Source: Mycolicibacterium chubuense NBB4
GTDB taxonomy: Bacteria; Actinomycetota; Actinomycetes; Mycobacteriales; Mycobacteriaceae
Assembly: GCF_000266905.1 (NCBI RefSeq)
Contig: NC_018027.1
Span: 3,782,001 to 3,846,000, forward strand
Direction of reading: 5' to 3'
DNA: 64,000 nucleotides
In this document: positions 8,196 to 34,320 of the stretch, in pieces
Layout of the letters: every line of letters begins with the position of its first letter
Position numbering within the stretch: position 1 is the first letter of the stretch
Notes under the pieces: model-generated
The model's database searches: none
Seen by the model: only the letters and a program-made list of their open reading frames with translations
What the model was told of the DNA's origin: nothing
Program-made: the position numbers and the translations under genes

Positions 8196-8463
8196 CCTCC
8201 TCGGGAGAGCTGCACTTCACAGCGCTGATATGGGCCTATGTGATGGAAACTGCATTCTCATCTGCCGCGAATCATACATTCGTGTGATGAGAACTCAAGG
8301 AATTGCGGAGAACCGCGGCTGCCTGCGGAAAACGGTGCGACAATCGATCGCCGGACGTCTCACCAGTGCGAACAGACCCCCCGCGTTGTCTTGCGATGCA
8401 GAGCAGTGCGAGAGTACGGTTCTCATATTCGGAAGGACGATTCTTGATGGGTGAGGGCTGCGC
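8196..8463. promoter_or_regulatory. Divergent promoter region between the ALDH-mce operon and the SDR-P450 operon
   Basis: This 268-bp gap has no convincing gene and is richer in AT than its surroundings. It holds an imperfect palindrome at 8245-8259 (GGAAAC-TGC-ATTCTC), a perfect 5-bp inverted repeat CGAAT-CATAC-ATTCG at 8268-8282, a wider pair TTCTCATC/GATGAGAA (8255-8262 and 8286-8293), and a palindrome at 8410-8424. These look like stacked operator sites controlling both operons. Confidence 0.6.
8410..8424. promoter_or_regulatory. Palindromic operator GAGAGT-ACG-GTTCTC
   Basis: The 15-bp site matches the motif GAGAAY-N3-RTTCTC with one mismatch in the left arm. It lies 39 bp upstream of the GTG start of the first SDR gene and just before an AT-rich CATATTC that may be the -10 element. 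The same motif recurs at 18807-18821, 18932-18946 and 34306-34320. The binding protein is not known. Confidence 0.55.
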
Positions 8464-9165
8464 GTGAAGAACGCCGTTGTGACCGGGGGCGGTTCGGGTA
8501 TCGGTGCCGCGATTGCGGAGCGCTTGAGGGCGGACGGCCTGAGCGTGGCCACGATCGATCTGAACCCCGGTGAGGAGAAGTTCTCCTATACCGCCGACGT
8601 CACCGATCGCGCCGCGGTCGACGCGGCGCTCGACGAGATCCGCGCCGAGTTGGGCCCGGTGACGGTGCTCGTCAACGCGGCCGGTCTGGACCGGTTCAAG
8701 CGGTTCACGGACCTGACGTTCGAGGACTGGCAGAAGGTCATCGACGTCAACCTCAACGGGACCTTCCACTGCATCCAGGCGGTGCTCCCCGACATGATCG
8801 AGGCCGGCTGGGGCCGGATCGTGAACATCTCCTCGTCGAGCACCCATTCGGGCCAGCCGTTCATGGCGCCGTACGTGGCGGCCAAGTCGGCGGTGAACGG
8901 GTTGACCAAATCACTGGCACTGGAATACGGGCCCAACGGGATCACGGTCAACGCAGTGCCGCCCGGGTTCATCGACACCCCCATGCTGCGCAAGGCCGAG
9001 CAGCGCGGTTTCCTCGGGGACACGCAGAAGCAGATCGAGGCGACGCCGGTGCGGCGCATGGGACGACCCGAGGACATCGCGGCCGCGGTCGCGTTCTTCG
9101 CCTCGGAGGAGGCCGGCTACATCACCGGGCAGATCCTCGGCGTCAACGGCGGCCGCAACACCTAG
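8464..9165 (+). CDS. Short-chain dehydrogenase/reductase (FabG-like)
   Basis: The 233-residue classical SDR has the Rossmann motif TGGGSGIG at 7-14, NAAG at about 71-74, and catalytic Ser124, Tyr137 and Lys141. It should interconvert an alcohol or 3-hydroxyacyl group and a ketone with NAD(P). The start is GTG at 8464 with GAGGG about 7 bp upstream. It opens a rightward operon (SDR, mycofactocin-type SDR, ferredoxin, P450). It is clearly paralogous to the SDR at 36907-37680, with shared stretches such as GTFHC and GWGRIV and the same C-terminal GVNGG. Confidence 0.9.
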   Translation: MKNAVVTGGGSGIGAAIAERLRADGLSVATIDLNPGEEKFSYTADVTDRAAVDAALDEIRAELGPVTVLVNAAGLDRFKRFTDLTFEDWQKVIDVNLNGTFHCIQAVLPDMIEAGWGRIVNISSSSTHSGQPFMAPYVAAKSAVNGLTKSLALEYGPNGITVNAVPPGFIDTPMLRKAEQRGFLGDTQKQIEATPVRRMGRPEDIAAAVAFFASEEAGYITGQILGVNGGRNT

Positions 9166-9214
9166 AGACCCGTCGGGCAAGCACCCACAAGGCACTTCGA
9201 AAGGACATCAGCTC

Positions 9215-10075
9215 ATGGGACGCGTTCAAGGCAAGGTCGCCTTCATCACCGGCGCCGCGCGCGGACAGGGCCGCAGCCACGCCGTCCGGCTCGCCGAGGA
9301 GGGCGCGGACATCATCGCCGTCGACCTGTGCGAGAACGTCGACACCATCGGATATCCGATGGCGACTCCCGAAGATCTCGACGAGACGGCGGCGTTCGTG
9401 GAGAAGACTGGCCAGCGCATCTACACCGCCAAGGCCGACGTCAGGGACGCGTCCCAGCTGAAGAAGGCGCTCGAGGACGGCATCGCCGCGCTGGGCGGGG
9501 TGGACATCGTCGTCGCGCAGGCCGGTATCGCGGGCATGAAGGGCAACCCGCCGCTGCAGGCCTGGACCGACGTGATCAACACCAACCTGATCGGCACGAT
9601 CAACGCCATCCAGGTGTCCCTGCCGCACCTCAGAGAAGGCGCGGCGATCGTCGCCACCGGGTCCACGGCCGCGCTCATGGACGCGCACAACAAGCCGAAC
9701 CCGGGCGGGGACCCGGGCGGCATGGCGTACATGACGTCGAAACGACTTCTCTCCCAGTACGTCCACGACCTCGCCACCGAGCTGGCGGTGCGCGGTATCC
9801 GGGCCAACGTCGTGCATCCGACCAACTGCAACACCGACATGCTCCAGAGCCCGCCGATGTACAAGTCGTTCCGCCCGGATCTGGAGAACCCCACCCGCGC
9901 GGATGCCGAGCCGGTCTTCGGCGTTCAGCAGGCCATGAAGGTCAACTTCATCGAGCCCGAGGACATCAGCAACGCGATCCTGTGGCTGGTGTCCGACGAG
10001 GCGCGCTATGTGACCGGCATGCAGCTGCGGGTCGACGCGGGCGGCTACCTGAAGTGGTACGACTACCACATCTGA
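9215..10075 (+). CDS. Mycofactocin-coupled SDR oxidoreductase
   Basis: The 286-residue SDR starts GKVAFITGAARGQGRSHA and carries an extra segment at about 38-67 (CENVDTIGYPMATPEDLDE) between the second strand and helix. This insertion marks the mycofactocin-associated SDR subfamily, which holds a non-exchangeable NAD and passes electrons to mycofactocin. The catalytic Ser150 region and YMTSK (Tyr172, Lys176) are intact. It likely oxidises an alcohol made by the P450 encoded downstream (inference). An AAGGACAT ribosome-binding stretch precedes the ATG. Confidence 0.88.
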   Translation: MGRVQGKVAFITGAARGQGRSHAVRLAEEGADIIAVDLCENVDTIGYPMATPEDLDETAAFVEKTGQRIYTAKADVRDASQLKKALEDGIAALGGVDIVVAQAGIAGMKGNPPLQAWTDVINTNLIGTINAIQVSLPHLREGAAIVATGSTAALMDAHNKPNPGGDPGGMAYMTSKRLLSQYVHDLATELAVRGIRANVVHPTNCNTDMLQSPPMYKSFRPDLENPTRADAEPVFGVQQAMKVNFIEPEDISNAILWLVSDEARYVTGMQLRVDAGGYLKWYDYHI

Positions 10076-10108
10076 GACTGTCAGGGAATTCTCCAGAAAG
10101 GAACGGGC

Positions 10109-10303
10109 GTGAAGGTTTTCGTTGATTCGAGTCGGTGCCAGGGACACACGCTGTGCTCGATGATCGCGCCGGATTCCTTCGAGCTCAGCGATATCGACGG
10201 AACCTCCTCGCCGGTCAACGAGGTGGTTCCGCCCGATCAGGAGGCGGCAGTCCGGGAGGCTGCGCAGTCCTGCCCCGAACAGGCCATCTCCATCGAAGAG
10301 TGA
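10109..10303 (+). CDS. Small P450-type ferredoxin, single [3Fe-4S] type
   Basis: The 64-residue acidic protein has the layout C-x2-x-x2-C...CP. Cys10, Cys16 and Cys55 are present, and His13 occupies the variable position where a fourth Cys would sit in a [4Fe-4S] protein. Such mycobacterial ferredoxins deliver electrons to P450s. The start is GTG with AAAGGAA upstream. The P450 gene begins 40 bp downstream, so this is its probable redox partner. Confidence 0.9.
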   Translation: MKVFVDSSRCQGHTLCSMIAPDSFELSDIDGTSSPVNEVVPPDQEAAVREAAQSCPEQAISIEE

Positions 10304-10343
10304 GTCTTCGACGGAACACCGATAGCGCAGGGAGACAGAAGCT

Positions 10344-11720
10344 TTGAGTGTCGACGACGTCGTGGACGGCACCGCCGACGACAGCCGTAAACAGCACACG
10401 TACTACTTCGACAGGCACACACCGGAATACCGGCTGCAGTTCGAGAAGATCACCGAGGAGATGCACTCCAAGTGCCCGGTGGCGTGGTCGGAGACCTACA
10501 ACGGCCACTGGGTCGCCGCGGGCAGCAAGCAGGTGTTCGAGCTGGCCCGCTGCCCCGCGGTCTCCAATCACCATGACATCTCGGGAGAGACGCCTTATCA
10601 AGGCATCACGATCCCGAAGGCGAGCCGCGCGACTGTCGTCCGCGGTGGCATCCTGGAGATGGACGAGCCCGAGCACAGCGCTTACCGCGGGGCCTTGAAT
10701 CCCTACCTGTCACCGGCGGCGATCAAGCGCTGGGAGCCGTTCATCGACGAGATCACCCGCGCGGCGCTCGACGAGCACATCGAGTCGGGACGTATCGACT
10801 TCGTCGATCACCTGGCCAATGTCGTGCCTGCGGTGTTCACGCTGGCGATGATGGGCATCGAGCTGAAGAAGTGGAACGTCTACAGCGAGCCGACCCACGC
10901 GTCGGTCTACACCCCCGAACACGCTCCCGAGCGCGAGAAGATCAACGAACAGCACCGCGAGATGGGCGTCGATCTCATCAACAACATGATGGAGATCCGG
11001 CAGAATCCGCGGCCCGGACTGGTCAACGCGTTGCTTCAGTTGCGGATCGACGGGGAGCCCGCGCCGGACATCGAGATCCTCGGCAACCTCGGGCTGATCA
11101 TCGGCGGCGGGTTCGACACCACCACCGCACTCACCGCGCACGCGCTGGAGTGGCTCGGTGAGCATCCCGAGGAGCGCACGCGACTCAGCCGTGAGCGCGC
11201 GACGCTTCTGCATCCGGCGACCGAGGAATTCCTGCGGTTCTTCACCCCCGCACCCGGTGACGGCCGCACGTTCTCCGAGGACGTCGAGGTCGAAGGCCAG
11301 CAATTCAAGAAGTACGAGCGGCTGTGGCTGTCCTGGGCGATGGCCAACCGCGACGCCTCGGTGTTCGAGCACCCGAACGACGTGGTGCTGGACCGGAAGG
11401 GCAACCGGCATTTCAGCTTCGGGATCGGTGTGCACCGCTGCGTGGGGTCCAACGTGGCCCGCACGGTGTTCAAGTCCATGCTCACCGCGGTGCTGGACCG
11501 GATGCCCGATTATGTCTGCGATCCCGAGGGGACCGTGCACTACGACACCATCGGGGTCATCCAAGGCATGCGCCATCTGCCCGCGACCTTCACTCCGGGC
11601 ACGAAGCTCGGTCCCGGCCTCGATGAGACCCTGGACACGTTGCAGCGCATCTGCAACGAGCAGGAGCTCGCTCGGCCGATCACGGAGCGCAAGGAAGCCG
11701 CTGTCATCGACCTTGCCTGA
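10344..11720 (+). CDS. Cytochrome P450
   Basis: The 458-residue P450 has an I-helix motif GGGFDTT at 254-260, an ExxR pair at Glu295/Arg298 and the heme loop FGIGVHRCVGSN with Cys366. It should hydroxylate a hydrophobic substrate using electrons from the ferredoxin encoded just upstream. The start appears to be TTG at 10344 with GGGAG about 9 bp upstream. The glycine-rich I-helix replaces the common AGxxT with GGGFDTT, a variation seen in some actinobacterial P450s. The family number cannot be assigned by eye. Confidence 0.92.
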   Translation: MSVDDVVDGTADDSRKQHTYYFDRHTPEYRLQFEKITEEMHSKCPVAWSETYNGHWVAAGSKQVFELARCPAVSNHHDISGETPYQGITIPKASRATVVRGGILEMDEPEHSAYRGALNPYLSPAAIKRWEPFIDEITRAALDEHIESGRIDFVDHLANVVPAVFTLAMMGIELKKWNVYSEPTHASVYTPEHAPEREKINEQHREMGVDLINNMMEIRQNPRPGLVNALLQLRIDGEPAPDIEILGNLGLIIGGGFDTTTALTAHALEWLGEHPEERTRLSRERATLLHPATEEFLRFFTPAPGDGRTFSEDVEVEGQQFKKYERLWLSWAMANRDASVFEHPNDVVLDRKGNRHFSFGIGVHRCVGSNVARTVFKSMLTAVLDRMPDYVCDPEGTVHYDTIGVIQGMRHLPATFTPGTKLGPGLDETLDTLQRICNEQELARPITERKEAAVIDLA

Positions 11721-11783
11721 TGAGCCTCGTATTTCGCGGTGAAGTGGTTCTATGAGTGGGGCGAGGGAACGGGAGGACCGGCG

Positions 11784-12221
11784 ATGAAGCTCGGCAGGAT
11801 CGCGACCGCGATCATCACGCTCGCGGCGACCGCGACGGTGCTGGCGCCGCCGTCGCAGGCGGCCATGCAGCTGGGCAACTACGACCTGCTCACCAACCGG
11901 TACGACCGGGCGTCGTGGGTGTGGTTCGCCGCGGCCTGCATCCCCGAGAAGTTTCCGGACTGCGTGCACATCGGCGCCCGGCCCCGGCTCAAGTACTACG
12001 CCTACTACGAGGGCAAGGCCGTTCTGGCCGACGGCCGCTACACGCTCAACGTCGAGGTTCCGGACGGGCTGCGCTGCCCCGGATACAACATGCCGACGCA
12101 CGAGACCTACTCGTGGGACGCGGTCACGCTGGTCGGCACCATCGACTCGAGGTTCGACGTGGGATGCTTCAACGGCCCGCCGGGGACCCAGTTCTGGACT
12201 TTCGCGCTGCAGCGCCTCTGA
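11784..12221 (+). CDS. Small secreted protein of unknown function
   Basis: The predicted protein has 145 residues and starts MKLGRIATAIITLAATATVLA, a typical Sec signal peptide with likely cleavage after about residue 26 (SQA-AM). The mature part has four cysteines and many aromatic residues (KYYAYYEG, ETYSWD), consistent with a small disulfide-stabilised exported domain. The ATG at 11784 has GGGAGG 8 bp upstream, which beats an in-frame upstream start at 11739 that would bury the signal peptide. Similar secreted proteins are common in mycobacteria, but no function is known to me. Confidence 0.7.
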   Translation: MKLGRIATAIITLAATATVLAPPSQAAMQLGNYDLLTNRYDRASWVWFAAACIPEKFPDCVHIGARPRLKYYAYYEGKAVLADGRYTLNVEVPDGLRCPGYNMPTHETYSWDAVTLVGTIDSRFDVGCFNGPPGTQFWTFALQRL

Positions 12222-12234
12222 CCCACCCCTCTTT

Positions 12235-12268
12235 CCCGCGAGTGTTGGGGGTACCGCCCGCTCGCGGG
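12235..12268. terminator. Hairpin between convergent genes
   Basis: CCCGCGAG (12235-12242) pairs perfectly with CTCGCGGG (12261-12268) around an 18-base loop. It lies between the 3' ends of two convergent genes, so it may end transcription from either side. No T-run follows, so this is a tentative call. The rest of the 100-bp gap shows nothing else. Confidence 0.4.
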
Positions 12269-12323
12269 GGAGTGTCCGCGGCCGCCACGCCGCGAAAATT
12301 CGGGAGTTCCCGCACGCTCACCC

Positions 12324-13535
12324 TCACAGCAGCGCGTACCGCTGCCGAATCGCGTTGAATCTCAACCACATCTGCGCCGTCCGCTCCTCGGCGGTGACGG
12401 TCGCGGTGTCGGCGGGCAGCACCGACGACAGTTCTGAGTGCCGGACGAGCGTCGTGCTCAGCACCGCGGGCCGGCCGTCGAGCATGTGCCGGTACGTCAC
12501 GTTGCCGCGCTCGAATCCCTGGGTGTCCAGCCAGTTGTGGTAGCCGGGGTCGTGGTGAGCGAGCAGCAGCCGGACCTTTCCATCGCCGTCCACCGCCGTC
12601 CGGCTCGGGGTGTAACTCACGGGGCGGTACAGGAAGTCCATGCTGTTGAAGAACACCCCCATGTTCGTCAACATCCACAGGCCGGCATGCGCATCGAACT
12701 CGATGACCAGCGCCTCGTCGGCGGCCAGACTCCAGTGCATGTTGACCGCAGCACGGCCGCGCCTGACATCGCCGTCGGCGGATGCGACGGCCGGAAAACG
12801 GTTGGGCCGGTCGGCGTCGACTCCGCCGTAGGTGAACGGGAACTCCGGCCAGTCGCCCATCACACCGGTGAGGAAGTCGCCCGCCCACTCGATCGCGTCG
12901 ATCATCTGCCCGGCCGTCGGCAGCGGCTTCGGGGCGGTCATGTCCACGCGTTCGATGCGCAGCCGGGCCGGTCGCTCCTCCCAGGAGTCGAAGCCCTGCC
13001 GGATGAACAGCTTGCGCGAACCTGCCGTGGTCGGCAGCCAATTGGCCGCGCGGGGAGGTCCGCCGATGTGGATCTCGAACGTGCCGTCGGGCGCGACATC
13101 GAGCTGCTCACCGGAGAGGTTGGCCTCCGGCACGTCGCCGAACGGCTCGTGCAGTACGCCCGGCCCCTCCGGGCGAGGACCCTGCACGGTGACGTTGAGA
13201 AACCGTGCGGTGCCGCGCTCCCCGACGATGCGGTAGGTCGATTCCCCGTCGATCCATGCCTGCTGATACGTGAAGTCCGCACAGTCGCCGCCGAGCTTGC
13301 GGGTCGGGCCGCAGAACGCGTGCAGACTCGGATACCGGGTGTTCCTGGTCTCCAGCGCCAAGTCGAAGGCCTGCCCGAGATTCTGGGTGAGGAAGCGCAG
13401 CGCGTCGACCCGCTGCGCCCCGGCCGTCGGGTTGTGGTCCTTGAACGCCTGCTCCCCCGCCGCCCTGAGCCGGTCGCAGAACGTGTTCCACGCGGCGTTC
13501 AACGCTGCATCGTCGGGACCGTCACCGAACGCCAT
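12324..13535 (-). CDS. DUF1214-like uncharacterised protein
   Basis: The 403-residue soluble protein has no signal peptide. Its composition and pattern (WLPTTAGSRKLFIRQGFDSWEE in the middle, then beta-rich sequence with RVDM) resemble the DUF1214 group of actinobacterial proteins. The match was made by eye. It is the last gene of the leftward operon that begins with two acyl-CoA dehydrogenase genes at 18776. It lies 6 bp after a TIM-barrel protein and close to a sulfotransferase. No catalytic residues can be named. Confidence 0.55.
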   Translation of the reverse strand: MAFGDGPDDAALNAAWNTFCDRLRAAGEQAFKDHNPTAGAQRVDALRFLTQNLGQAFDLALETRNTRYPSLHAFCGPTRKLGGDCADFTYQQAWIDGESTYRIVGERGTARFLNVTVQGPRPEGPGVLHEPFGDVPEANLSGEQLDVAPDGTFEIHIGGPPRAANWLPTTAGSRKLFIRQGFDSWEERPARLRIERVDMTAPKPLPTAGQMIDAIEWAGDFLTGVMGDWPEFPFTYGGVDADRPNRFPAVASADGDVRRGRAAVNMHWSLAADEALVIEFDAHAGLWMLTNMGVFFNSMDFLYRPVSYTPSRTAVDGDGKVRLLLAHHDPGYHNWLDTQGFERGNVTYRHMLDGRPAVLSTTLVRHSELSSVLPADTATVTAEERTAQMWLRFNAIRQRYALL

Positions 13536-13541
13536 CGCGGG

Positions 13542-16599: not shown

Positions 16600-16604
16600 G
16601 CTCT

Positions 16605-17780
16605 CTAACGCCTGGGCAGGCCGAGCACCTGCTGGGCGATGATGTTGCGCTGGATCTCCGACGTCCCGCCGGCGATCGTGCCGCCGAAGCTGCGGGCGTA
16701 CCGCTCGAACCAGCTCGCGAAGTAGTGGTCGAGGTTCATGTGGGCGTAGGGGCCCGATGTCGCGGGGTGGATCAGCCCGTCGGGCCCGGCGGCTTCCAGT
16801 GCGAGCACCTCCACGCGCTGCTCGGCCTCCGCGCCGAGGAGTTTGGGGATGGAGACGGACGCCACGTCGACCTCGCCGCGCGCGGCCTTCGCGATGCCCA
16901 CCGACCCGAGGAGACGCAGCGCCTCGTAGTCCATGATGCTGGTCGCCAGCGCGTCACGCTCCGGGGCCGTGTTGGGCCGGAAGTCGGCGATGCAGTTGGC
17001 GATTCGGTCGGCGAAGCCGAGCCACATCATGGTCCGCTCGTGGCCCAACGAGCCGTTGGCCACCCCCCACCCGCCGTTGAGCGGGCCGACGAGGTTCTCG
17101 GCGGGCACCCGGGCGTCGGTGAAGAACACCTCGTTGAAGTCGAGGTTCTCGATACCGCACATGTCGGCGAACGGCCGGCACACCACGCCTTCGAGGTCGG
17201 TGGGGATCAACAGCACGCTGATCCCCTTGTGCTTGGGGGCGTCGGGGTCCGTGCGCACGAACGTCAGCAGGAAGTCGGCGTCGTGAGCCCCGGACGTCCA
17301 CACCTTCTGACCGTTGACCACGAAATGCTCGCCGTCGCGAACGGCTTTGGTACGCAACGATGCCAGGTCCGAGCCCGCACTCGGCTCGCTCATGCCCAGC
17401 GACGCGGTGCGCTCCCCGCGCAGCACCGGGACCGCCCACTTGTGCTTCTGTTCGTCGGTGCCGAACGTCAGCAACGACGCCGCGATGATGTTGACGCCCT
17501 GCGGGTTGAAGCTGTGATAGATCCGGCGCCGGCAGAGTTCCTCGGCGTGCACGAAGGTCTGCAACACGGTCGCGTTGCGGCCGCCGAACTCGGGCGGTTG
17601 GGCGGGCAGCAGCCAGCCGTTGTCGAACAGCAGCCGCTGCCAGTCCCTGGCCCACTGCGGCATGTGCGACACCGACCGCGGGCGCTCCAGCGTCTCGGCG
17701 GCCGACGGTGTGTGCTCGTCGAGGAACGCGGAGAACTCGGCGCGGAATTCCTCGACGTCGGAGTCGAAAGCCAGTTGCAT
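16605..17780 (-). CDS. Acyl-CoA dehydrogenase, alpha-type subunit
   Basis: The 391-residue FadE-type protein has MSEPSAGSDLA, VNGQKVWTSGAHDAD and a C-terminal TIAGGTSEIQRNIIAQ, all typical of FAD-binding acyl-CoA dehydrogenases. It abuts the 331-residue FadE-like gene upstream with no gap. This pattern is known for mycobacterial alpha2-beta2 heteromeric enzymes that act on steroid-CoA or branched side chains. It should introduce a double bond next to the CoA thioester. A close full-length paralogue lies at 47512-48690. Confidence 0.9.
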   Translation of the reverse strand: MQLAFDSDVEEFRAEFSAFLDEHTPSAAETLERPRSVSHMPQWARDWQRLLFDNGWLLPAQPPEFGGRNATVLQTFVHAEELCRRRIYHSFNPQGVNIIAASLLTFGTDEQKHKWAVPVLRGERTASLGMSEPSAGSDLASLRTKAVRDGEHFVVNGQKVWTSGAHDADFLLTFVRTDPDAPKHKGISVLLIPTDLEGVVCRPFADMCGIENLDFNEVFFTDARVPAENLVGPLNGGWGVANGSLGHERTMMWLGFADRIANCIADFRPNTAPERDALATSIMDYEALRLLGSVGIAKAARGEVDVASVSIPKLLGAEAEQRVEVLALEAAGPDGLIHPATSGPYAHMNLDHYFASWFERYARSFGGTIAGGTSEIQRNIIAQQVLGLPRR

Positions 17781-18776
17781 CTACAGATCCCTCCCGTACT
17801 CCGCCGCGATCAGAGCTCGGTGCTCGGCTGCTCCGCCCAGCATCAGTTCGCCCGCCTTGGCCCGCTTGAGCGCGAACTGCAGGTCGTTCTCCCAGGTGAA
17901 CCCCATGGCGCCGAATGTCTGCAGGCCGTGGCGGAAGACCAGTGCCTGGCACTCCCCCGCCGACGCTTTGGCCATGGCCGCGGCGAGCCGCCGGCGCGGG
18001 TCGTCGGCAGCGATGGTCAACGCGGAGAAGTACGACAGCGCCCGGGCCCGCTCGATCGCCACGTGCATGTCGGCGGCCTTGTGCTGGATGGCCTGGAACG
18101 TGCCGATCGCCACGCCGAACTGCTGGCGGCTCTTGGCGTGCTCGAGGGCCAGATCGAGGATGCGCTGACAGGCGCCGACCATGGTGATCGCCATTCCCAT
18201 CAGCGCGAGGTGCCGGGCGCGCTCGACGTCGACGGGTAGGCGCTCGGACTCGGCGACGCGCACGCCGGCGAACGAGACCTCGGCCACGTGGAGCACCGGA
18301 TCGAACACGTCGACGCGGCGGGTGGTCAGCTGGTTCCCGCCGATCAGGAAAACGCCGCCGGGTGTCACCACCGCGACGCGTTCGGCACGATCCCCGTCGA
18401 GCACGAACCGGTCGGTGCCGTTGAGCACCCACCCCTGGGCATCGCGGACCGCGGTGACCCCGGTGTACACCGCCGCACCCGAGCTCTGCGGGTCGAAGCG
18501 CTCACCCACCAACGGGGCGAACTGCGTGACGGTGGCCAGAAACGGTGTGGGATCGGTGGCGCGCCCGAGCTCCTCGAGGACGATCGCGAGCTCGACGGCG
18601 TTGTCCGGATCGGTGAGCTCGGTCCAGCCGGCGTCCAGGTAACCGGTCCACAAGGGCGCCGGATCGACGCCGTTCTCGGCGATGTCACGGATCAGCGAGG
18701 GCGGGCACTGCTTGGACACCGCGTCCCGCACGGTTTCCTGCCACAGCCGCTGATCGGCATCGAATTCCAACAGCAT
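17781..18776 (-). CDS. Acyl-CoA dehydrogenase, beta-type subunit
   Basis: The 331-residue protein is shorter than a canonical FadE (about 380-400). It retains GACQRILDLALEHAKSRQQFG, the FAD-contacting helix, and a C-terminal GAMGFTWENDLQFALKRA. The short length and lack of a clear substrate-binding middle are typical of the partner subunit in heteromeric mycobacterial acyl-CoA dehydrogenases. It is the first gene of the 18776-12324 operon, with CGGAGG upstream of the ATG and a palindromic operator about 30 bp before the start. Confidence 0.88.
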   Translation of the reverse strand: MLLEFDADQRLWQETVRDAVSKQCPPSLIRDIAENGVDPAPLWTGYLDAGWTELTDPDNAVELAIVLEELGRATDPTPFLATVTQFAPLVGERFDPQSSGAAVYTGVTAVRDAQGWVLNGTDRFVLDGDRAERVAVVTPGGVFLIGGNQLTTRRVDVFDPVLHVAEVSFAGVRVAESERLPVDVERARHLALMGMAITMVGACQRILDLALEHAKSRQQFGVAIGTFQAIQHKAADMHVAIERARALSYFSALTIAADDPRRRLAAAMAKASAGECQALVFRHGLQTFGAMGFTWENDLQFALKRAKAGELMLGGAAEHRALIAAEYGRDL

Positions 18777-18805: not shown

Positions 18806-18822
18806 GGAGAATAACATTCTCC
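18806..18822. promoter_or_regulatory. Perfect palindromic operator GGAGAAT-AAC-ATTCTCC
   Basis: Two 7-bp arms match exactly around AAC. The site lies 29 bp upstream of the leftward acyl-CoA dehydrogenase operon, and on that strand it contains TGTTAT, a possible -10 element. It is the best copy of the motif GAGAAY-N3-RTTCTC. An extra half site, GTTCTCC, lies at 18838-18844. Confidence 0.7.
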
Positions 18823-18931
18823 TTAGACGTTGTAACCGTTCTCCTCTGCCGACGAGCACGTTTCGCCAGGGTGCGGGGTGCACACTCACCCACGCCCGCC
18901 GTGACCTGCGCAGAAGTAAGCACTGCGATTG

Positions 18932-18972
18932 GAGAACTCAATTCTTGCCAATGAAGAACTAGGATCTACACT
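18932..18972 (+). promoter_or_regulatory. Promoter of the amidohydrolase operon with overlapping operator
   Basis: TTGCCA (18945-18950) and TACACT (18967-18972) are separated by 16 bp and read as -35 and -10 elements. The palindrome copy GAGAAC-TCA-ATTCTT (18932-18946) overlaps the -35 box, so a bound protein would block the polymerase. The gene start at 19052 is about 75 bp downstream of the predicted transcription start. Confidence 0.55.
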
Positions 18973-19051: not shown

Positions 19052-20152
19052 GTGATCGAGATCAGCCACGGCGCGCAGACGCTGTCCGTGCCCGTCATAG
19101 ATGCCAGCGTGCACATCTTCTTCGGCTCCAACAAGGACTTGCGCCGGAACTTCCTGCGCGAACCGTTCAGCAGCCGCGGGTTCCCCGACTACGAGATGGA
19201 CTGGTACGGCGCGCCCGGCGGTGAGTACGCCGCCGGCACCACCGGACCGGACCGCGAGTACCCCGGCTCGGATGTCGGCATCGTCGCCGAGCACCTTTTC
19301 GCCGACCGCGGCGTCGACGTTGCAGTGCTGCACCCGATGACCCGCGGGATCATGCCCGACCGGCACCTGGGCACGGCGATCGCGTCGGCGCACAACGAGA
19401 TGATGGTGTCGCGCTGGCTGGACGACGAGCGCTACGGGGAGAGATTCCGCGGCACTCTCCGTGTCAATCCCGATGACATCGCCGGCGCTCTGCGCGAGAT
19501 CGCCAAGTACAAGGACCATCCCCGCGTCGTGCAGATCGGCATCCCGCTGCAGTCCCGGGAGCTGTACGGCAAGCCGCAGTACTGGCCGCTGTGGGAGGCC
19601 GCCGCCGAGGCGAATCTGCCTGTCGCGGTGCACATCGAGACCGGTGAGGGCATCGCGTCTCCGCCCACCCCGAACGGGCACACGCTGACCTACGAGCACT
19701 TCCTGTCGTTCATGTCGCTGAACTACGTCTACCACCTGATGAACATGATCGCCGAGGGCGTGTTCGAGCGGTTCGACACCCTGAGGTTCGTCTGGGCCGA
19801 CGGAGCGGCCGACCTGTTGACGCCGTTCATCTGGCGGATGGACTGCTTCGGCCGCCCCCATCTGGAGCAGACGCCCTGGGCGCCGAAGATCCCCAGCGAC
19901 TATCTGCCGGGCCACGTGTACTTCGTACAGGGCGGCCTCGACGGACCCGGTGACGCCGAATTCGCCGGAGAGTGGTTCGGCTTCACCGGGAAAGACCGCA
20001 TGGTGATGTTCGGCTCCAGCTATCCGCACTGGCACATGAACGAACTGACGGTGCCCGCGACGTTCACCGACGAGCAGCGCGACAGGCTGTGCTGGCGCAA
20101 CGCCGCCGAGCTCTACGGCATAGACATTCCGGTCGGTTCGGTCGCACAGTAG
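19052..20152 (+). CDS. Amidohydrolase-family protein (amidohydrolase 2 type)
   Basis: The 366-residue TIM-barrel protein starts VIEISHGAQTL and has VIDASVHIFFGS, the region of the first metal ligands, then HPMTRGIM, VAVHIETGEG and MFGSSYPHWHMNE near the C-terminus. These resemble decarboxylases and hydrolases of the amidohydrolase 2 group. The GTG at 19052 with GGAAGG 9 bp upstream is chosen. An open frame back to 18929 would run through the operator and promoter. It is followed 22 bp downstream by a second member of the family. Confidence 0.8.
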   Translation: MIEISHGAQTLSVPVIDASVHIFFGSNKDLRRNFLREPFSSRGFPDYEMDWYGAPGGEYAAGTTGPDREYPGSDVGIVAEHLFADRGVDVAVLHPMTRGIMPDRHLGTAIASAHNEMMVSRWLDDERYGERFRGTLRVNPDDIAGALREIAKYKDHPRVVQIGIPLQSRELYGKPQYWPLWEAAAEANLPVAVHIETGEGIASPPTPNGHTLTYEHFLSFMSLNYVYHLMNMIAEGVFERFDTLRFVWADGAADLLTPFIWRMDCFGRPHLEQTPWAPKIPSDYLPGHVYFVQGGLDGPGDAEFAGEWFGFTGKDRMVMFGSSYPHWHMNELTVPATFTDEQRDRLCWRNAAELYGIDIPVGSVAQ

Positions 20153-20174
20153 AAGTCAAGGACAGGAGGCCAAC

Positions 20175-21320
20175 ATGACGGTCACAGAGACTCGCGAACG
20201 GGTACCTGCAGCCGAGCGCATCGCCATCCGGTGTGTCGACTCCGACGTGCATCCGATGCCCCGCCGCGGCGAGCTGCTGGAGTACATCCCGGAACCGTGG
20301 CGCACCAAGTACTTCACCAATCACAAGGTCGGCGAGCTGATCTACTACGACGCGCCCGACTACGCCCACGCCTACGCGATGCGCGTCGACACCTTCCCCA
20401 AGGACGGCGAATTCGCCGGCAGCGACCCCGACCTGATGCTCAAGCAGCTGGTCATGGAGGCCGGTGCCGACGTCGTCATCCTCGAACCCACCGATCGCAT
20501 CGCACGGTTGCCCGAGGCGACCGCGGCGATGTCGTCGGCGGTGAACAGCTGGCTGGCCAACCACTGGCTCGACAGCCACAACAACTGGCATCAGCGCTGG
20601 CGCGGATCGATCTGTGCGGCGATCGAAGAGCCCGAGCTCGCCGCCCGCGAGATCGAGAAGTGGGCCGGGCACCCGTACATGGCGCAGATCCTGATCAAGG
20701 CCGAGCCGCGCCCGTCGTGGGGTCATCCGCGCTACGACCCGATCTGGGCGGCGGCGACCAAGCACGACATCACGGTGAGCTGCCACCTGTCCCGCGGCAC
20801 CTACGAGACGCTGCCGATGCCGCCGGTGGGGTTGCCGAGCTACAACCACGACTTCATGGTCAGCTACTCGCTGACCGCGGCCAACCAGGTGATGAGCCTG
20901 ATCTTCGACGGGGTCTTCGACCGCTTCCCGACCCTGCGCATCGTGTTCGTCGAGCACGCCTTCACCTGGATCCTGCCGCTGATGTGGCGGATGGACGCCA
21001 TCTACGACAAGCGCAGGCAGTGGCTCGACATCAAGCGCAAACCCAGCGACTACGTCAAAGACCACATCAAGTTCACCACCCAGCCGCTGGACTACCCCGA
21101 GGACAAGACCGAACTGTCCCGGGCGTTCGAGTGGATGGAGTGCGAGAAGATCCTGCTGTACTCCAGCGACTACCCGCACTGGACCTTCGACGACCCGCGC
21201 TGGCTGGTCAAACACCTGCCCGAACACGCCCGCGAAGCGGTCATGTTCAAAAACGGCATCCAGACCTACAAACTGCCGGAGACCGTCCCGGCCCTCGAGG
21301 GCCAGGTTCGGGTCTTCTAG
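20175..21320 (+). CDS. Amidohydrolase-family protein (amidohydrolase 2 type)
   Basis: The 381-residue protein starts with CVDSDVHPMPRRGELLEY, where DxH supplies metal ligands, and has VSCHLSRG, FVEHAFTWILPLMWRMD and LLYSSDYPHWTFDDP. These are hallmark segments of amidohydrolase 2 proteins of actinobacteria. The ATG follows a strong AGGAGG. It is a homologue of the preceding gene, and the two may be subunits or act in successive steps. The next gene, a Rieske protein, starts on the base after its stop codon. The reaction is not known; decarboxylation or hydrolysis of a ring-cleavage product is possible. Confidence 0.82.
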   Translation: MTVTETRERVPAAERIAIRCVDSDVHPMPRRGELLEYIPEPWRTKYFTNHKVGELIYYDAPDYAHAYAMRVDTFPKDGEFAGSDPDLMLKQLVMEAGADVVILEPTDRIARLPEATAAMSSAVNSWLANHWLDSHNNWHQRWRGSICAAIEEPELAAREIEKWAGHPYMAQILIKAEPRPSWGHPRYDPIWAAATKHDITVSCHLSRGTYETLPMPPVGLPSYNHDFMVSYSLTAANQVMSLIFDGVFDRFPTLRIVFVEHAFTWILPLMWRMDAIYDKRRQWLDIKRKPSDYVKDHIKFTTQPLDYPEDKTELSRAFEWMECEKILLYSSDYPHWTFDDPRWLVKHLPEHAREAVMFKNGIQTYKLPETVPALEGQVRVF

Positions 21321-28998: not shown

Positions 28999-29045
28999 CA
29001 GGAGGCGAAACGCTCGACCCAAAGCGACAGTGCTGGATCGCAGCA

Positions 29046-29062: not shown

Positions 29063-29116
29063 CGATTCGCCTCTCGTAAAGCTTCCGGCCTCCAGCCCGC
29101 CGTGAAGGAGGAACCC

Positions 29117-30319
29117 ATGGCCGCGCCCGAACTCCGCTTCGATCCTGTCGCTCAGGACTACTTCGACAATCCGTACGAGATCTACCGACGGATGCGCGAC
29201 GAAGCTCCCATCTACTACGACGCAGAGCAAGACTTCTACGCGCTGACCCGGCACGCCGATGTGGCAGCGGCGTTCAAGGATTACGAGTCGTTCTCCTCGG
29301 CCCGCGGATGCGACCTCGGGATGGTGCGCTCCGGTGAGGTGCCGCAGAAGTCGATCATCTTCATGGACCCGCCGGATCACCGCCACATGCGGAGCCTGCT
29401 CAACAAAGCGTTCACGCCGCGGGCCATTCAGTCGCAGCGCGACACCGTCACAGAACTGGTCGAGCACTACCTCGCGAAGGCGGACCCGAACAATTTCGAC
29501 GTCGTGCAGGACTTCTCCGGGCCGTTCCCCGTCGAGGTGATCACCCGGATGGCGGGGGTGCCGGAGGACTTCCGCCAGCAGGTCCGCCACTGGATCGACA
29601 CGAGCCTGCAGCGCGAGCCCGGGCAGATCTCGTGGAGTGAAGAGAACATGAAGGCCAACATCGACTCCGGTGTCTACTACTACGGCCTGGTCCTGGAACG
29701 TCGCGAGAACCCGCAGGACGACATGATCAGCCGGCTGATCGCGGCCGAGATCCCCTGCGAGAACGGCGAGATGCGCAAACTCGACGACGTCGAGATCGCC
29801 GGCTTCGCGACTCTGCTCGGCGGCGCCGGAGCGGAGACGGTGACCAAGTTGGTGGGCAGCGCGGTGGTCGTGTTCGCCGAACACCCCGATCAATGGCAGA
29901 TGCTGCTCGACGACCGCAGCAAGATCCCCGATGCCGTCGAGGAACTGTTGCGGTATGTCGGCCCGGTCCAGTACAACGTGCGCTACAGCCTCAGAGACGT
30001 GGAGTTGCCCAGCGGCACCGTGCCCGCCAACAAGCCGGTGTTCCTGATGGGCGCCTCCGCCAACCGGGATCCGCGCGCGTTCGACGATGCCGAGACGTTC
30101 GACATCACCCGCGACCGGTCGCAGGCCCAGAACCTCGGGCTCGGTTACGGCATCCACAGCTGCCTCGGCGCAGCGTTGGCCCGCATGGAAAGCGCTATCG
30201 CGCTGGATCACCTGCTCGACTTCATGCCGCGTTTCGAGGTGGACTTCGACGGTCTGGAGCGCGTGCACATGCAGAATGTCGCAGGTTTCCACCACGTCCC
30301 CGTGAAGGTGTTGCGATGA
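29117..30319 (+). CDS. Cytochrome P450
   Basis: The 400-residue P450 has GAGAET at 236-241 in the I-helix, the ExxR pair Glu276/Arg279 and the heme loop LGYGIHSCLGAALAR with Cys349. The ATG at 29117 follows AAGGAGG; an upstream GTG at 29102 lies before this ribosome site and is not chosen. A ferredoxin gene overlaps its stop, and a second similar P450 follows. The three form a compact cassette P450-ferredoxin-P450 in which one ferredoxin could feed both enzymes. Confidence 0.93.
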   Translation: MAAPELRFDPVAQDYFDNPYEIYRRMRDEAPIYYDAEQDFYALTRHADVAAAFKDYESFSSARGCDLGMVRSGEVPQKSIIFMDPPDHRHMRSLLNKAFTPRAIQSQRDTVTELVEHYLAKADPNNFDVVQDFSGPFPVEVITRMAGVPEDFRQQVRHWIDTSLQREPGQISWSEENMKANIDSGVYYYGLVLERRENPQDDMISRLIAAEIPCENGEMRKLDDVEIAGFATLLGGAGAETVTKLVGSAVVVFAEHPDQWQMLLDDRSKIPDAVEELLRYVGPVQYNVRYSLRDVELPSGTVPANKPVFLMGASANRDPRAFDDAETFDITRDRSQAQNLGLGYGIHSCLGAALARMESAIALDHLLDFMPRFEVDFDGLERVHMQNVAGFHHVPVKVLR

Positions 30320-30516
30320 CCCGGAAGGTCGAAGTCGATTTCGGGCTCTGCGAGAGCAACGGGGTGTGCATGGGCATCATCCCGGAGGTGTTCGAGCTCG
30401 ACGAAAACGATTACCTGCATGTGTTGTCCGACGAGGTGACCCCCGAGAACGAGCAGCAGATCAGGGAAGCCGTCCGTCAGTGCCCGCGCCAAGCGATCTC
30501 GATCCGCGACGAATGA
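30316..30516 (+). CDS. Small P450-type ferredoxin, single [3Fe-4S] type
   Basis: The 66-residue protein has the pattern C-x2-N-x2-C...CP (Cys12, Asn15, Cys18, Cys56). Asn sits at the variable position. It overlaps the P450 genes on both sides by 4 bp (ATGA twice), so the three are made in fixed proportion. It is the probable electron donor of the tandem P450s. Confidence 0.9.
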   Translation: MTRKVEVDFGLCESNGVCMGIIPEVFELDENDYLHVLSDEVTPENEQQIREAVRQCPRQAISIRDE

Positions 30517-31721
30517 CGACATCGGCAGAGCTCGTCTTCGATCCGTTCTCCGAGGAGTTCTTCAACGGCCCGTGGGAGATCTACCGGCGCATGCGGGAGG
30601 AGGCGCCGGTCTACTACAACGCGGACTACGACTTCTATGCGTTGTCCCGGCACGAGGACGTCGCCGCGGCCTTCAAGGATTTCCAGACATACTCTTCGGC
30701 ATACGGTCTCGATCTCGCGACGGTGAAGGCGGACGAACCTCTCCCCGTGAAGATGATCATCATCATGGATCCCCCCGAACACCGGCAGATGCGCAGCCTC
30801 GTCAACAAGGTCTTCACCCCCCGCGCGATCGGCAATCTCAAGCCCATGGTCGCAGCGACGATCGATCGCTACATCTCCCGGGTCGACCCCGAACGCTTCG
30901 ACGTGGTTGGCGACTTCTCCGCCCTGTTCCCCGTGGAAGTGATCACCGAGATGCTCGGTGTCCCGCAGGACGACCGGCAGAAGGTCCGGCAGTGGGTGGA
31001 CACGTCGCTGCACCGCGAGCCCGGCCAGATCGAGATGTCCGACGAGGGCATGCAGGCCGTCGCCGAACTGATGGGGCTGTACTACAACATCATTCAAGAA
31101 CGTCGAGCCGAACCCAGCGACGACATGTTCAGCCGGTTGATCGCCGCCGAGGTGGAGCGGGAAGACGGTGAGAAGGAATCGCTGGATGACTTCGAGATCG
31201 CCGGATTCGCAACGCTTCTGGGCGGTGCCGGCGCCGAGACGGTGACGAAGCTGGTCGGCAACGCAGCGGTGACGTTCGCGCGGTTCCCCGACCAGTGGCA
31301 GAAGCTGCTCGAGGACCGCAGCAAGATCCCGGCCGCAGTCGAGGAACTGCTGCGTTACGAGGCGCCGAACCAGTACAACGTGCGCAGGTCGATGAGAGAG
31401 GTCCGGCTGCACGGTGTCACGATCCCGGCGGGCAAACCCGTGTTCCTGCTCGGCGGCTCGGCGAACCGAGACCCCGAGGCGTTCACCGACGCCGACGTGT
31501 TCGACATCGACCGGGACCGGACCGAGGCGCAGAACCTAGGCTTCGGCTACGGCGTGCACAGTTGTCTGGGTGCCGCGCTGGCCCGCATGGAAAGCGCGAT
31601 CGCGCTCGAGCGCCTCCTGGACTTCATGCCGCGCTACGAGGTGTTGTGGGATCGATGCGAGCGGGTGGCAGCGCAGAACGTCGCCGGCTGGTCCAGCGTC
31701 CCCGTCCACGTCACCCGGTAG
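30513..31721 (+). CDS. Cytochrome P450, paralogue of the preceding one
   Basis: The 402-residue P450 is closely similar to the one at 29117-30319 over its whole length, including EEFFNGPWEIYRRMREEAPVYYN at the start, LLGGAGAETVTK in the I-helix and FGYGVHSCLGAALARMES with Cys351. The pair clearly arose by duplication. It likely acts on the same or a successive intermediate. It is followed 4 bp later by an alpha/beta hydrolase gene. Confidence 0.93.
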   Translation: MTTSAELVFDPFSEEFFNGPWEIYRRMREEAPVYYNADYDFYALSRHEDVAAAFKDFQTYSSAYGLDLATVKADEPLPVKMIIIMDPPEHRQMRSLVNKVFTPRAIGNLKPMVAATIDRYISRVDPERFDVVGDFSALFPVEVITEMLGVPQDDRQKVRQWVDTSLHREPGQIEMSDEGMQAVAELMGLYYNIIQERRAEPSDDMFSRLIAAEVEREDGEKESLDDFEIAGFATLLGGAGAETVTKLVGNAAVTFARFPDQWQKLLEDRSKIPAAVEELLRYEAPNQYNVRRSMREVRLHGVTIPAGKPVFLLGGSANRDPEAFTDADVFDIDRDRTEAQNLGFGYGVHSCLGAALARMESAIALERLLDFMPRYEVLWDRCERVAAQNVAGWSSVPVHVTR

Positions 31722-31725
31722 GACG

Positions 31726-32505
31726 ATGCGTTTCGTGTTCGTCCACGGCGGCTTCCACGCCGCCTGGTGCTGGGAGCGCACGATCACCGCACTCGAAGCG
31801 CTCGGCCACGACGCCGTCGCCGTCGACCTGCCCGGCCACGGCACCCGCGTGCACGAGGAGTCCACACTGGCCAACCGGTGCGAGGCGATCGTGTCGGCGC
31901 TCGAGGCCGGCGGCGCGGGACACAGTGTGCTGGTGGGACATTCGGGCGGCGGTTTCGACGCCACACTCGCCGCCGACGCCAGGCCGGATCTCGTGGGACA
32001 CATCGTGTATCTCGCCGCCGCCCTGCCCCGGGAGGGGCGCACCTATCCCGAGGCGATGGCCATGCGCGATGAAGACGACGAGCTGGGCGAGCAGTTCGAC
32101 GGGGATGTCGGGGCGATGTTGAGCTATCTCCATTTCGACGAGGACGGCGCGATGACGTTCGCCGACTTCGACGGCGCGTGGAGGTACTTCTATCACGACT
32201 GCGACGAGGCGACCGCGCGCTGGGCGTTCGAGCGGCTGGGGCCCGAGCGGTTCGGCGACACCACCGTCACCCCTGTCTCGGTGCCGCGGTTCTGGGAGGC
32301 CGACCTGCCGCGCAGTTTCATTGTCTGCGAACAGGATCGATCGATGCCGCGCTGGCTGGCCGACACCGTCGCGCGCCGGCTCGGCGTCACGCAGCTGTCG
32401 ATCGATGCGTCACACTCGCCGTTCCTGTCGCGCCCACGCGAGCTCGCGGAGCTGCTCGTGCACGCCACCGCCACCGAGGCGGTCGGCCCGCTGGTCCCGC
32501 ACTAG
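31726..32505 (+). CDS. Alpha/beta hydrolase (EstC/hydroxynitrile-lyase-like)
   Basis: The 259-residue protein starts MRFVFVHGGFHAAWCWERTI, typical of the small esterase branch that includes plant-type methyl esterases and hydroxynitrile lyases. The nucleophile elbow is GHSGGG with Ser73, and the late SHSPFLSRP offers the catalytic His. It is the last gene of the rightward operon. Its 3' end overlaps the convergent DUF1330 gene by 4 bp. Confidence 0.82.
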   Translation: MRFVFVHGGFHAAWCWERTITALEALGHDAVAVDLPGHGTRVHEESTLANRCEAIVSALEAGGAGHSVLVGHSGGGFDATLAADARPDLVGHIVYLAAALPREGRTYPEAMAMRDEDDELGEQFDGDVGAMLSYLHFDEDGAMTFADFDGAWRYFYHDCDEATARWAFERLGPERFGDTTVTPVSVPRFWEADLPRSFIVCEQDRSMPRWLADTVARRLGVTQLSIDASHSPFLSRPRELAELLVHATATEAVGPLVPH

Positions 32506-32786
32506 AAGCCCGAGATGATCACACCGTTGCAGTCGGCGGCGGCCTGCCGCAGCTTGACGGCTTCCTGGTAGGCGTCGGAGTAGTACCACTCCTTGGCTGC
32601 GTCGACGGATTCGAACTCCAGCACCACAGTCTGGGTGGCCGGCCACTCCCCCTCGAGCACCTCCGGGTTGTGGCCGATCGACAGCAGCGTCGCACCCGCC
32701 ATGGTCTTGCTGGCGAGCTTGCCGTACTCGGCCATGCCCGCCGGGTCCTTGACCTCCTCGGTGATGATCACATAACCCTTGGCCAC
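32502..32786 (-). CDS. DUF1330 family protein
   Basis: The 94-residue protein starts MAKGYVIITEEVKDPAGM and shows the ferredoxin-like fold of the DUF1330 family, with VVLEFESVDAAKEWYYSDAYQEAVKLR in the middle. The family has no firm biochemical role. The GTG at 32786 is preceded by AAGGAG, which decides the start. It lies 17 bp downstream of a ferredoxin in the P450 operon that starts at 34275. Confidence 0.8.
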   Translation of the reverse strand: MAKGYVIITEEVKDPAGMAEYGKLASKTMAGATLLSIGHNPEVLEGEWPATQTVVLEFESVDAAKEWYYSDAYQEAVKLRQAAADCNGVIISGF

Positions 32787-32803
32787 TCGAATGTCTCCTT
32801 CTC

Positions 32804-32995
32804 TCAGTCGATTTCGCTGATCGCCCGCTCGGGGCAGTTGTCGATCGCCTCGCGGGTCGCGGCTTCGAGCGAGGCCGGGATCTCCCCCGGATCCGCGACC
32901 GCCCACCCGTCGTCGGTCATCTCGAAGACTTCAGGACACAGCGTCAGGCACATGCCGTGCCCGGCGCAGCGGTCCTCGTCGACTCTGACCCTCAT
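32804..32995 (-). CDS. Small P450-type ferredoxin, single [3Fe-4S] type
   Basis: The 63-residue protein has C-x2-H-x2-C...CP with Cys10, His13, Cys16 and Cys54. An extra Cys20 follows. It overlaps the upstream P450 by 4 bp (ATGA) and is the obvious redox partner of that enzyme. His at the variable position matches the ferredoxin at 10109, not the two between them. Confidence 0.9.
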   Translation of the reverse strand: MRVRVDEDRCAGHGMCLTLCPEVFEMTDDGWAVADPGEIPASLEAATREAIDNCPERAISEID

Positions 32996-34275
32996 ATGAC
33001 GTCGAACTCGAGGTGCAGTTCGGTGAGCCCCCGCAGGATGTAGGTCGGGATGTACTTGTACCGCCGGGCGCCGGCGGGACCGTGCTCGCTCTCGGAGATC
33101 CGGATGTCGGAGGTGCGGTCGAGCAGTCGTTCGAGCCCCACCCGGGTCTCGGCACGGGCCAGCGGCGCTCCCGGGCAGCTGTGGATTCCGCGGCCGAAGG
33201 CCAGGTGCTGACGCGCGTTCTTGCGCTCCGGATCGAAGGCGTCCGGGTCTTCGAACCGGCGCGGATCCCGGTTGGCGGCACCATTGATCACCATCACGGT
33301 GGTGCCGGCACCGACGTGCTGATCCCCCACCGTGGTCGGCACCCGCGACAGCCGGAAGTCCCCCTTGACGGGACTCTCGATGCGCAGGCACTCCTCGATG
33401 AAGTTCGGTAGCAGACTACGGTCGCCGCGCAGCTTCGCCTGGATGTCGGGGCGGTCACCCAGCACCTTGAGCGCGGTGCTGAGCAGCCGGACGGTGGTCT
33501 CCTGCCCCGCCGAGAAGACGTTCGTGGCCACGCGCACCACATCGCCGACGTCGGGCATCGTGCCGTCGGGGAACGTCGCGGTCGCCAGCCCGGTCAACAC
33601 GTCGTCGCGCGGCTGCGCCCGGCGATCCTCGACGTAGGTGGCGAACACCTCGTAGAGGTACTCCAGCGGCGTCTTGGCCAGCGTTTTCTCGGCGTTGCCC
33701 AGGCCGCTGCCGTGCGTGCCCCGGGCCAGCCGGTCGATCAGTTCCGCGCGATCTTCGTCGGGCACACCGAGCAGGTCGGCGATCACGCGCAACGTGAACG
33801 GCCCGGCGAAGCCCTTGATGAACTCGCCGCGGCCCGGCGCGAGGAAGTCGTCGAGGATGTCGTCGGCGAGCTGCCACATCGCGTCCTCGTTCTCCTTGAG
33901 GCGCTTGGGGGTGATCAACCGCATGAGCAGCGCACGGTGATTGGTGTGCGTCGGCGGGTCCAGCGTGGGCAACTGGTCACTGAACGGGATCTCGTCGCGG
34001 TGCTGCTTGATCAGCTCGGTGAGATCCTCGTCCTGCCGTCCCTCCAGCGGGACCGGGAAACCGGGGAACGGACCCGTGACCGAGATGCACGACGAGAAGG
34101 ACTCGGCGTCGTTGTAGACGTCGACGGCCTCCTGCCAGCCCGTCACCATGGTGACGCCGTAGTGGTCCTCCCGGCTCACCGGGCACTTGTTGCGCAGCGC
34201 CTCGTAAAAGGTGTACGGGTCGTCGGTCAGGCGACCGTCCCGGAAGAAGTCGACCGTGGTTAGGTCCTCAGTCAT
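32992..34275 (-). CDS. Cytochrome P450
   Basis: The 427-residue P450 has SAGQETT (255-261) in the I-helix, the ExxR pair Glu295/Arg298 and the heme loop FGRGIHSCPGAPLAR with Cys367. It is not a close relative of the tandem pair upstream. It opens a three-gene leftward operon with a ferredoxin and a DUF1330 protein. GGAG lies upstream of the ATG, and a near-perfect palindromic operator lies 31 bp before the start. Confidence 0.93.
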   Translation of the reverse strand: MTEDLTTVDFFRDGRLTDDPYTFYEALRNKCPVSREDHYGVTMVTGWQEAVDVYNDAESFSSCISVTGPFPGFPVPLEGRQDEDLTELIKQHRDEIPFSDQLPTLDPPTHTNHRALLMRLITPKRLKENEDAMWQLADDILDDFLAPGRGEFIKGFAGPFTLRVIADLLGVPDEDRAELIDRLARGTHGSGLGNAEKTLAKTPLEYLYEVFATYVEDRRAQPRDDVLTGLATATFPDGTMPDVGDVVRVATNVFSAGQETTVRLLSTALKVLGDRPDIQAKLRGDRSLLPNFIEECLRIESPVKGDFRLSRVPTTVGDQHVGAGTTVMVINGAANRDPRRFEDPDAFDPERKNARQHLAFGRGIHSCPGAPLARAETRVGLERLLDRTSDIRISESEHGPAGARRYKYIPTYILRGLTELHLEFDVI

Positions 34276-34305
34276 GCGCGCTCCGTTTCACCGATCTCGT
34301 CCTAC

Positions 34306-34320
34306 GAGAACGTGATTCTC
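34306..34320. promoter_or_regulatory. Palindromic operator GAGAAC-GTG-ATTCTC
   Basis: This 15-bp copy of GAGAAY-N3-RTTCTC has near-perfect arms and lies 30 bp upstream of the leftward P450 gene. The sequence on the P450 strand just after it, GTAGGAC, could contain the -10 element. The 113-bp gap also separates this operon from the TfdA-type gene, whose 3' end is at 34389. Confidence 0.65.

Follow-up and report, generated by a model that had tools for sequence, protein, structure and literature searches.

Which protein governs the catabolic genes of a 64,000-nucleotide stretch of the Mycolicibacterium chubuense NBB4 genome, and how would it be brought to their promoters? This stretch, hereafter the window (C3:3782001-3846000 of the 6.34-Mb genome), carries several copies of the 15-bp palindrome GAGAAYNNNRTTCTC upstream of genes. 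The original prediction regarded these copies as one shared operator, read by a regulator encoded outside the window. The motif is genuine and the observation is confirmed: it behaves as a shared operator, and its clustering in the genome and its recurrence in relatives support a regulon. The best candidate for the regulator is g130, a TetR protein encoded 9.7 kb beyond the right end of the window.

Exact copies of GAGAAYNNNRTTCTC were scored over the whole genome. All eight fell within 133 kb (C3:3767204 to 3900035), in the stretch that contains the window, and none was found outside the island; the chance of such clustering is roughly 1.4e-11. When one mismatch was tolerated, 37 places were found in the whole genome, against 2 for a reversed control pattern. 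Within the window, 2 copies with no mismatch and 2 with one mismatch were seen, where 60 runs of an order-2 Markov model gave 0.000 and 0.12 on average. With up to two mismatches, 8 copies were found for 4.97 expected, a number reached in 19 of 100 shuffles and therefore not significant, and this is why genome-wide and cross-genome tests were used. A weight matrix was built from 12 copies and applied to a 224-kb segment around the window, about 94% of which is coding by our gene calls. Its 16 best matches, which comprise these 12 copies and four more, all lie between 3764399 and 3900035, and the centre of each is intergenic, far from the random scatter in coding DNA that would have spoken against an operator. 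One of them, at 3863772, overlaps the beginning of g136 by a few bases.

All five places named in the original prediction, 8245 included, do carry the motif. Of the four presented as full copies, only those at 18807 and 34306 are exact, and the other two each depart from the consensus by one base; 8245 was rightly called imperfect. The copy at 18932 does overlap a predicted -35 box, sharing two bases with the match TTGCCA-16-TACACT, which was the sole promoter match in the 401-bp region scanned.

The window copies were found again in relatives, the one at 34306 in a single relative. For seven relatives, 40 stretches were fetched because they held a site, so that they tell where sites lie, not how often, and do not include all sites of those genomes. 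At 35 of the 43 exact sites in these stretches, a homologue of an island gene started at most 250 bp away. The exact 18807 site was present before g069 in 6 of 7 relatives, and also in G085. The 18932 site recurred in the one-mismatch form GAGAA...TTCTT, 123-124 bp from the first site, in 6 of the 7 relatives' regions; in the seventh (L198) another neighbour replaces g070. The last bases of this site merge into the -35 match TTGCCA, which may explain why its imperfection is conserved. The 8410 site read GAGAGTACG[GA]TTCTC in all 5 located g059 upstream regions, and a sixth genome, G085, had no g059 orthologue in the fetched stretches. In the 5 relatives with a located g059 upstream region, the degenerate 8245 site was kept as GGAAAYTKCATTCTC (4 genomes) or GATAATTTCATTCTC (1 genome). 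The 34306 site was found at the same place in G028 (L193) and was not sought in the others.

As the original prediction had it, no regulator of the window appears to carry the site before its own gene: g100, g101 and g108, the TetR genes recognised by eye among those window genes that were annotated, have no matrix match of at least 13.6 bits directly upstream. The situation is different for g130, which matches the Pfam domain TetR_N with 31.2 bits (cut-off 24, E 1.8e-07, 217-aa form scanned). Of the 411 loci found, the closest 80, which bear the names Mycobacterium, Mycolicibacterium or Mycobacteriaceae, all have an exact predicted site upstream of g130. A palindromic site at the own promoter, typical of the TetR family, is thus predicted for g130 in these 80 loci and in five genomes of two other genera. 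In 71 of the closest 80 loci the site stands at -137 from a short start call, and the stack of these 71 sequences reads GAGAATAcTATTCTC, 13 bp, TACAAT, GAGGGGG and ATG, each base but one being conserved in at least 90%. This ATG lies 66 bp upstream of the first start call and gives the 239-aa form; public entries are mostly of 217 or 239 aa (best 120 rows). The conservation of GAGGGGG and ATG makes us favour the 239-aa start. A site with at most one mismatch was also found within 450 bp downstream of g130 in 65 of these 80 loci. Among 15 orthologues, identity is 86-100% over the DNA-binding part and the basic lead-in to it, and 55-80% elsewhere. The basic residues 29-50 that precede the helix-turn-helix are largely conserved in these orthologues and may form a contact between dimers. 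Seven genomes (G101, G086, G069, G130, G073, G016 and G022) hold two copies of g130, with 78-84% identity to the query.

The link between g130 and the sites was then followed across genomes. In a sample of 148 genomes of the genus, g130 (E 1e-30) was found in 122, and exact GAGAATNNNATTCTC in 122. Both were present in 120 genomes and neither in 24, with 2 and 2 genomes having one only (P 4e-23); in six genomes the absence of g130 was deduced by elimination, beyond the matches listed. Among 201 Mycobacteriaceae genomes, 46 (from 9 of 31 genera) contained g130; the median number of GAGAAYNNNRTTCTC sites was 9 in these and 1 in the remaining 155. When the own genus was left out, 6 sites or more were counted in 23 of the 32 genomes with g130 and in none of the 154 without it. 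In five genomes of two other genera, from the places listed, a site precedes g130 (66-78% identity), and in the three of them where such sites were fetched, others precede homologues of g036, g121, g166 or g171.

Several points weigh against a role of g130 as the reader of these sites. Orthologues of g036 (at least 74% identity) were found in 117 of the 148 genus genomes, all of which have g130; in the genus the island is present or absent as a whole, and therefore co-occurrence alone cannot separate a regulator from the island around it. The discriminating cases are G056, which lacks any g036 or g162 match and yet keeps g130 and its operator, and the genomes of other genera, 28 of 32 of which have no match resembling the IclR protein g162. 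Of these 32, however, 9 have only 1-5 sites, as in the range without g130. In G026, G063 and G089, g130 is present and its upstream operator decayed or gone; these genomes yielded no g036 orthologue with 74% identity or more, and we read these cases as decay after loss of the island. Conversely, G044 and G070 have one exact site each and no g130 match, the G070 genome being 73% complete. In the seven relatives, 8 of the 43 exact sites had no island homologue nearby. Lastly, the part of g130 outside the DNA-binding region gave a best PDB match of 39.6 bits, with no hint of an inducer.

A second feature of the operators became apparent when their flanks were scanned for a half-site GAGAAY or RTTCTC. 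Over 9 orthologous promoter groups, the best distance was 22 bp, with 4.00 of 6 positions matched (next, 3.31 at 21 bp), for a maximum of 3.23 in 2000 column permutations. For the 14 primary operators of M. chubuense NBB4, the score was 4.43 at 22 bp versus at most 3.29 at the other distances from 16 to 60, a result obtained in 0 of 5000 shuffles; 9 of them have a good half-site (5 or 6 of 6) at 21 or 22 bp, and the remaining 5 match 4 of 6. This test is not independent, because the spacing was first spotted in this genome and site 3863794 had been chosen as a member of such a pair. An independent test with 23 sites from five later-fetched genomes of two other genera, some of them orthologous copies (G166 and G191 from one genus, G290, G280 and G299 from the other), gave 4.43 at 22 bp, next 3.61, again in 0 of 5000 shuffles. 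Shuffles in the 14-site and 23-site tests preserved base composition only. The degenerate partner site has one well-matched half, which may be the left or the right one. Among the window pairs, the 8431 partner has its right half ATTCTT in 5 relatives (by eye), the 18829 partner shows a half-site at 21 bp over its orthologous group, and a sequence similar to the 18954 partner is found at 22 bp in relatives. Strong site and partner together span 37 bp. Since 22 bp is about two helical turns, two dimers spaced in this way would share one face of the DNA, and the recurrence of the 22-bp peak in two other genera suggests paired dimers.

The same signal could come from conserved promoter elements at a fixed distance rather than from a second operator. 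The second site does at times overlap a -10-like hexamer (TACAAT, TACATT or TACACT, by eye), and in the g130 promoter the strong site stands where the -35 box is expected, with its partner over TACAAT (by eye). The recurring unit is nevertheless the half-site GAGAA or TTCTC, as left or right half and on either side, and we regard the promoter explanation as rather unlikely, if a serious one. With paired operators, the 22-bp arrangement may make the g130 regulon a variant among TetR systems, and offers a DNA-binding arrangement open to test for a TetR protein. A broader proposal would make g130 the master regulator of a catabolic pathway not yet described, which occurs in most of the genus genomes sampled and also in other genera of the family. 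It would act through a composite 37-bp operator, in which a strong and a weak palindrome two turns apart let two TetR dimers load next to each other on the same face, across the core promoter. We hold the chances of this proposal to be evenly balanced.

From the computed sites, with their clustering, conservation, association with g130 and spacing of 22 bp, we infer binding, repression, pairing of dimers and release by an inducer, and it is highly probable that these sites serve g130, the TetR-type protein, as operators. Dimers of g130 would bind the copies of GAGAAYNNNRTTCTC, and at many sites a second dimer would probably occupy the weaker copy 22 bp off, on the same face. The 37 bp so occupied would cover the core promoter, and the island operons, together with g130 itself, would be kept off. 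Release would be brought about by a compound of the pathway, plausibly an acyl-CoA intermediate, as guessed by analogy with the mycobacterial regulator KstR2. With the g130 start corrected, 12 of the 14 primary operators lie 17-76 bp upstream of a start codon; farther upstream are 18932, 106 bp from the called start of g070, and 3856470, 209 bp from that of g131. This position makes repression likely, and repression with self-control is the simplest reading of the sequences.

Activation of the operons by g130 would be an alternative, and FasR, an activator by its NCBIfam name, is indeed among the weak matches of g130 (29 bits, cut-off 330). At most of the operators, however, a bound dimer would block the polymerase, and one operator overlaps a promoter match, which makes activation improbable. 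Less probable still is that another protein, encoded in the island or elsewhere, reads the sites, g130 being just one of its targets. The island has other TetR-like genes, g042, g100, g101, g108, g139 and g151 (by eye) and g164 (Pfam), and g164 may be part of the g162 run, itself preceded by a predicted operator. Directly upstream of these genes, no match reaches 13.6 bits; TetR regulators commonly have a site before their own gene, and g130 keeps its site in other genera. The IclR protein g162, which has an exact site 95 bp upstream, in a divergent promoter, and an orthologue in 116 of the 148 genus genomes, is a most improbable reader and was rejected, as G137 and G139 have no g162 match and yet 9 and 4 sites, the 28 other-genus genomes with g130 and no g162-like match (E 1e-40) carry 1-18 sites, and 6 genomes with a g162-like protein (44-49%) and no g130 have 0-2.

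Regulation by g130 was compared with known systems. Excerpts of PMC3068626 describe KstR, a mycobacterial TetR repressor of a lipid and steroid catabolic regulon, and KstR2 (Rv3557c / MSMEG_6009), a self-regulated TetR-type protein that controls acyl-CoA catabolic genes and whose palindrome is present at a handful of promoters close to its own gene, in most cases 22-82 bp upstream of the target starts. Where KstR2 has the 14-bp motif AnCAAGnnCTTGnT and three sites for 15 genes, the g130 system has GAGAAYNNNRTTCTC in 12 promoter regions spread along 136 kb, with a partner site at 22 bp. The shared sites (GAGAAYNNNRTTCTC) do not agree with AnCAAGnnCTTGnT by string comparison; AnCAAGnnCTTGnT itself was not searched for. 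By its sequences the g130 system would work like KstR2, but it is not KstR2. Neither did g130 reach the NCBIfam cut-offs for KstR (NF033703; 19.9 bits, cut-off 280) or ScbR (43.5 bits, cut-off 150). Mce3R, according to PMC11667970, is likewise a TetR-type repressor tied to an mce operon; unlike g130, it is a double TetR protein with asymmetric sites devoid of palindromes, whereas g130 has a single TetR_N match in 239 aa, and palindromic sites. Two TetR dimers on one operator are described for QacR and CprB in excerpts of PMC4150764, where binding is cooperative, and the sites paired 22 bp apart may allow a comparable pairing for g130. The CprB dimers occupy opposite sides of one 22-bp sequence (PMC4150764, same excerpts), whereas two separate 15-bp palindromes 22 bp apart would place g130 dimers on the same face. 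The C-19+ steroid cluster of M. smegmatis, according to excerpts of PMC5962712, is a second mycobacterial steroid cluster, with kstD and kshA genes, outside the kstR regulon; it is a candidate counterpart of the g130 island.

Searches of open-access PMC returned no paper with the exact strings of the motif, and looser ones, among the matches listed, no title or abstract on this operator. The GAGAAT of PMC4757040 concerns Rv0081 sites in the excerpts seen. Table 2 of PMC4482099 gives 30 regulators by M. tuberculosis gene number, with motif logos that are not in the text, so that a match there is possible. Catabolic regulons under TetR control are already known as a kind, to which the g130 regulon is newly added.

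Several window promoters named in the original prediction do belong to this regulon, and the list of controlled genes was too small, as 12 promoter regions over 136 kb are now counted. Besides the primary operators before g058, g059, g069/g068, g070, g087 and g130 (Table 1), others precede g034 (Mce-associated by eye), g036 (Amidohydro_2, with the FadD3-like g035), g121/g122 (CMD, Rieske oxygenase), g129 (crotonase, next to g130), g131 (P450), g136/g137, g161 (HsaD-like, with FAD_binding_3 and LigB genes), g162 (followed by the KstD-like g163), g165/g166 (MeaB; short-chain dehydrogenase/reductase, SDR) and g171/g172 (FadD; ferredoxin). Operon extents were deduced from gene spacing only. The g058 run goes from the Aldedh gene through a CoA-transferase and a thiolase-like gene to the YrbE and Mce genes.

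Table 1. Predicted operators and genes of the proposed g130 regulon, and other genes (window positions unless marked C3)
Feature	Position	Strand	Context
Weak predicted operator GGAAACTGCATTCTC, two mismatches	8245..8259	.	between g058 (-) and g059 (+)
Second, degenerate candidate operator GCGAATCATACATTC	8267..8281	.	+22 from 8245
Predicted operator GAGAGTACGGTTCTC, one mismatch	8410..8424	.	40 bp upstream of g059 (SDR); g058 divergent
Second candidate operator GGAAGGACGATTCTT	8431..8445	.	+21 from 8410
Exact predicted operator GAGAATAACATTCTC	18807..18821	.	31 bp upstream of g069 (FadE-type subunit)
Second candidate operator GTTGTAACCGTTCTC	18829..18843	.	+22 from 18807; right half-site complete
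Predicted operator GAGAACTCAATTCTT, one mismatch	18932..18946	.	overlaps -35 of g070 promoter match
Promoter match TTGCCA-16-TACACT	18945..18972	+	g070 run; consensus match
Second candidate operator AAGAACTAGGATCTA	18954..18968	.	+22 from 18932; overlaps start of -10
Exact predicted operator GAGAACGTGATTCTC	34306..34320	.	31 bp upstream of g087 (P450)
Second candidate operator GCGTATCAGGTTTTC	34327..34341	.	+21 from 34306
YrbE/Mce genes of g058 run	183-3076, run continuing past left end	-	MlaE, Mce4_CUP1/MlaD matches
g058, aldehyde dehydrogenase	6684..8192	-	Pfam Aldedh; heads close run to YrbE/Mce genes
g059 (SDR), g060 (mycofactocin-coupled SDR), g062 (P450)	8464..11720	+	operon inferred
g069 and g068, two-subunit acyl-CoA dehydrogenase (FadE pair)	16605..18776	-	
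g070 and g071, Amidohydro_2 proteins	19052..21320	+	head run to thiolase/ChsH2-like and P450 genes; operon inferred
g087, cytochrome P450	32992..34275	-	
g128	C3:3853690-3854682		right of window
Exact predicted operator of g130	C3:3855676-3855690		56 bp before g130 start codon
g130, TetR protein, 239 aa	C3:3855747-3856466 (window-equivalent 73747-74466)		outside window
g162, IclR protein	C3:3890262-3891026		

Family matches suggest that the island serves to break down the ring and side chain of a cyclic, lipophilic compound. For this orphan island of about 130 kb, with its P450s, Rieske and FadE enzymes, SDRs and Mce importer, there are now a list of genes, an operator and a putative regulator. 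Should g130 prove to be a repressor, loss of its gene would be expected to turn the pathway on, which would make the substrate findable.

Two minor observations were made. The gene g128, between the Rieske operon and g129/g130, is IS30-type transposase-like (by eye). In three relatives (G034, G020 and G082; loci L170, L177 and L178), one more exact copy, GAGAATGNCATTCTC, is found some 130-141 kb away from the closest island site listed; in L177 and L178 its neighbours, judged by eye, are a gene for a PfkB-like kinase and one for 2-oxoacid:ferredoxin oxidoreductase alpha.

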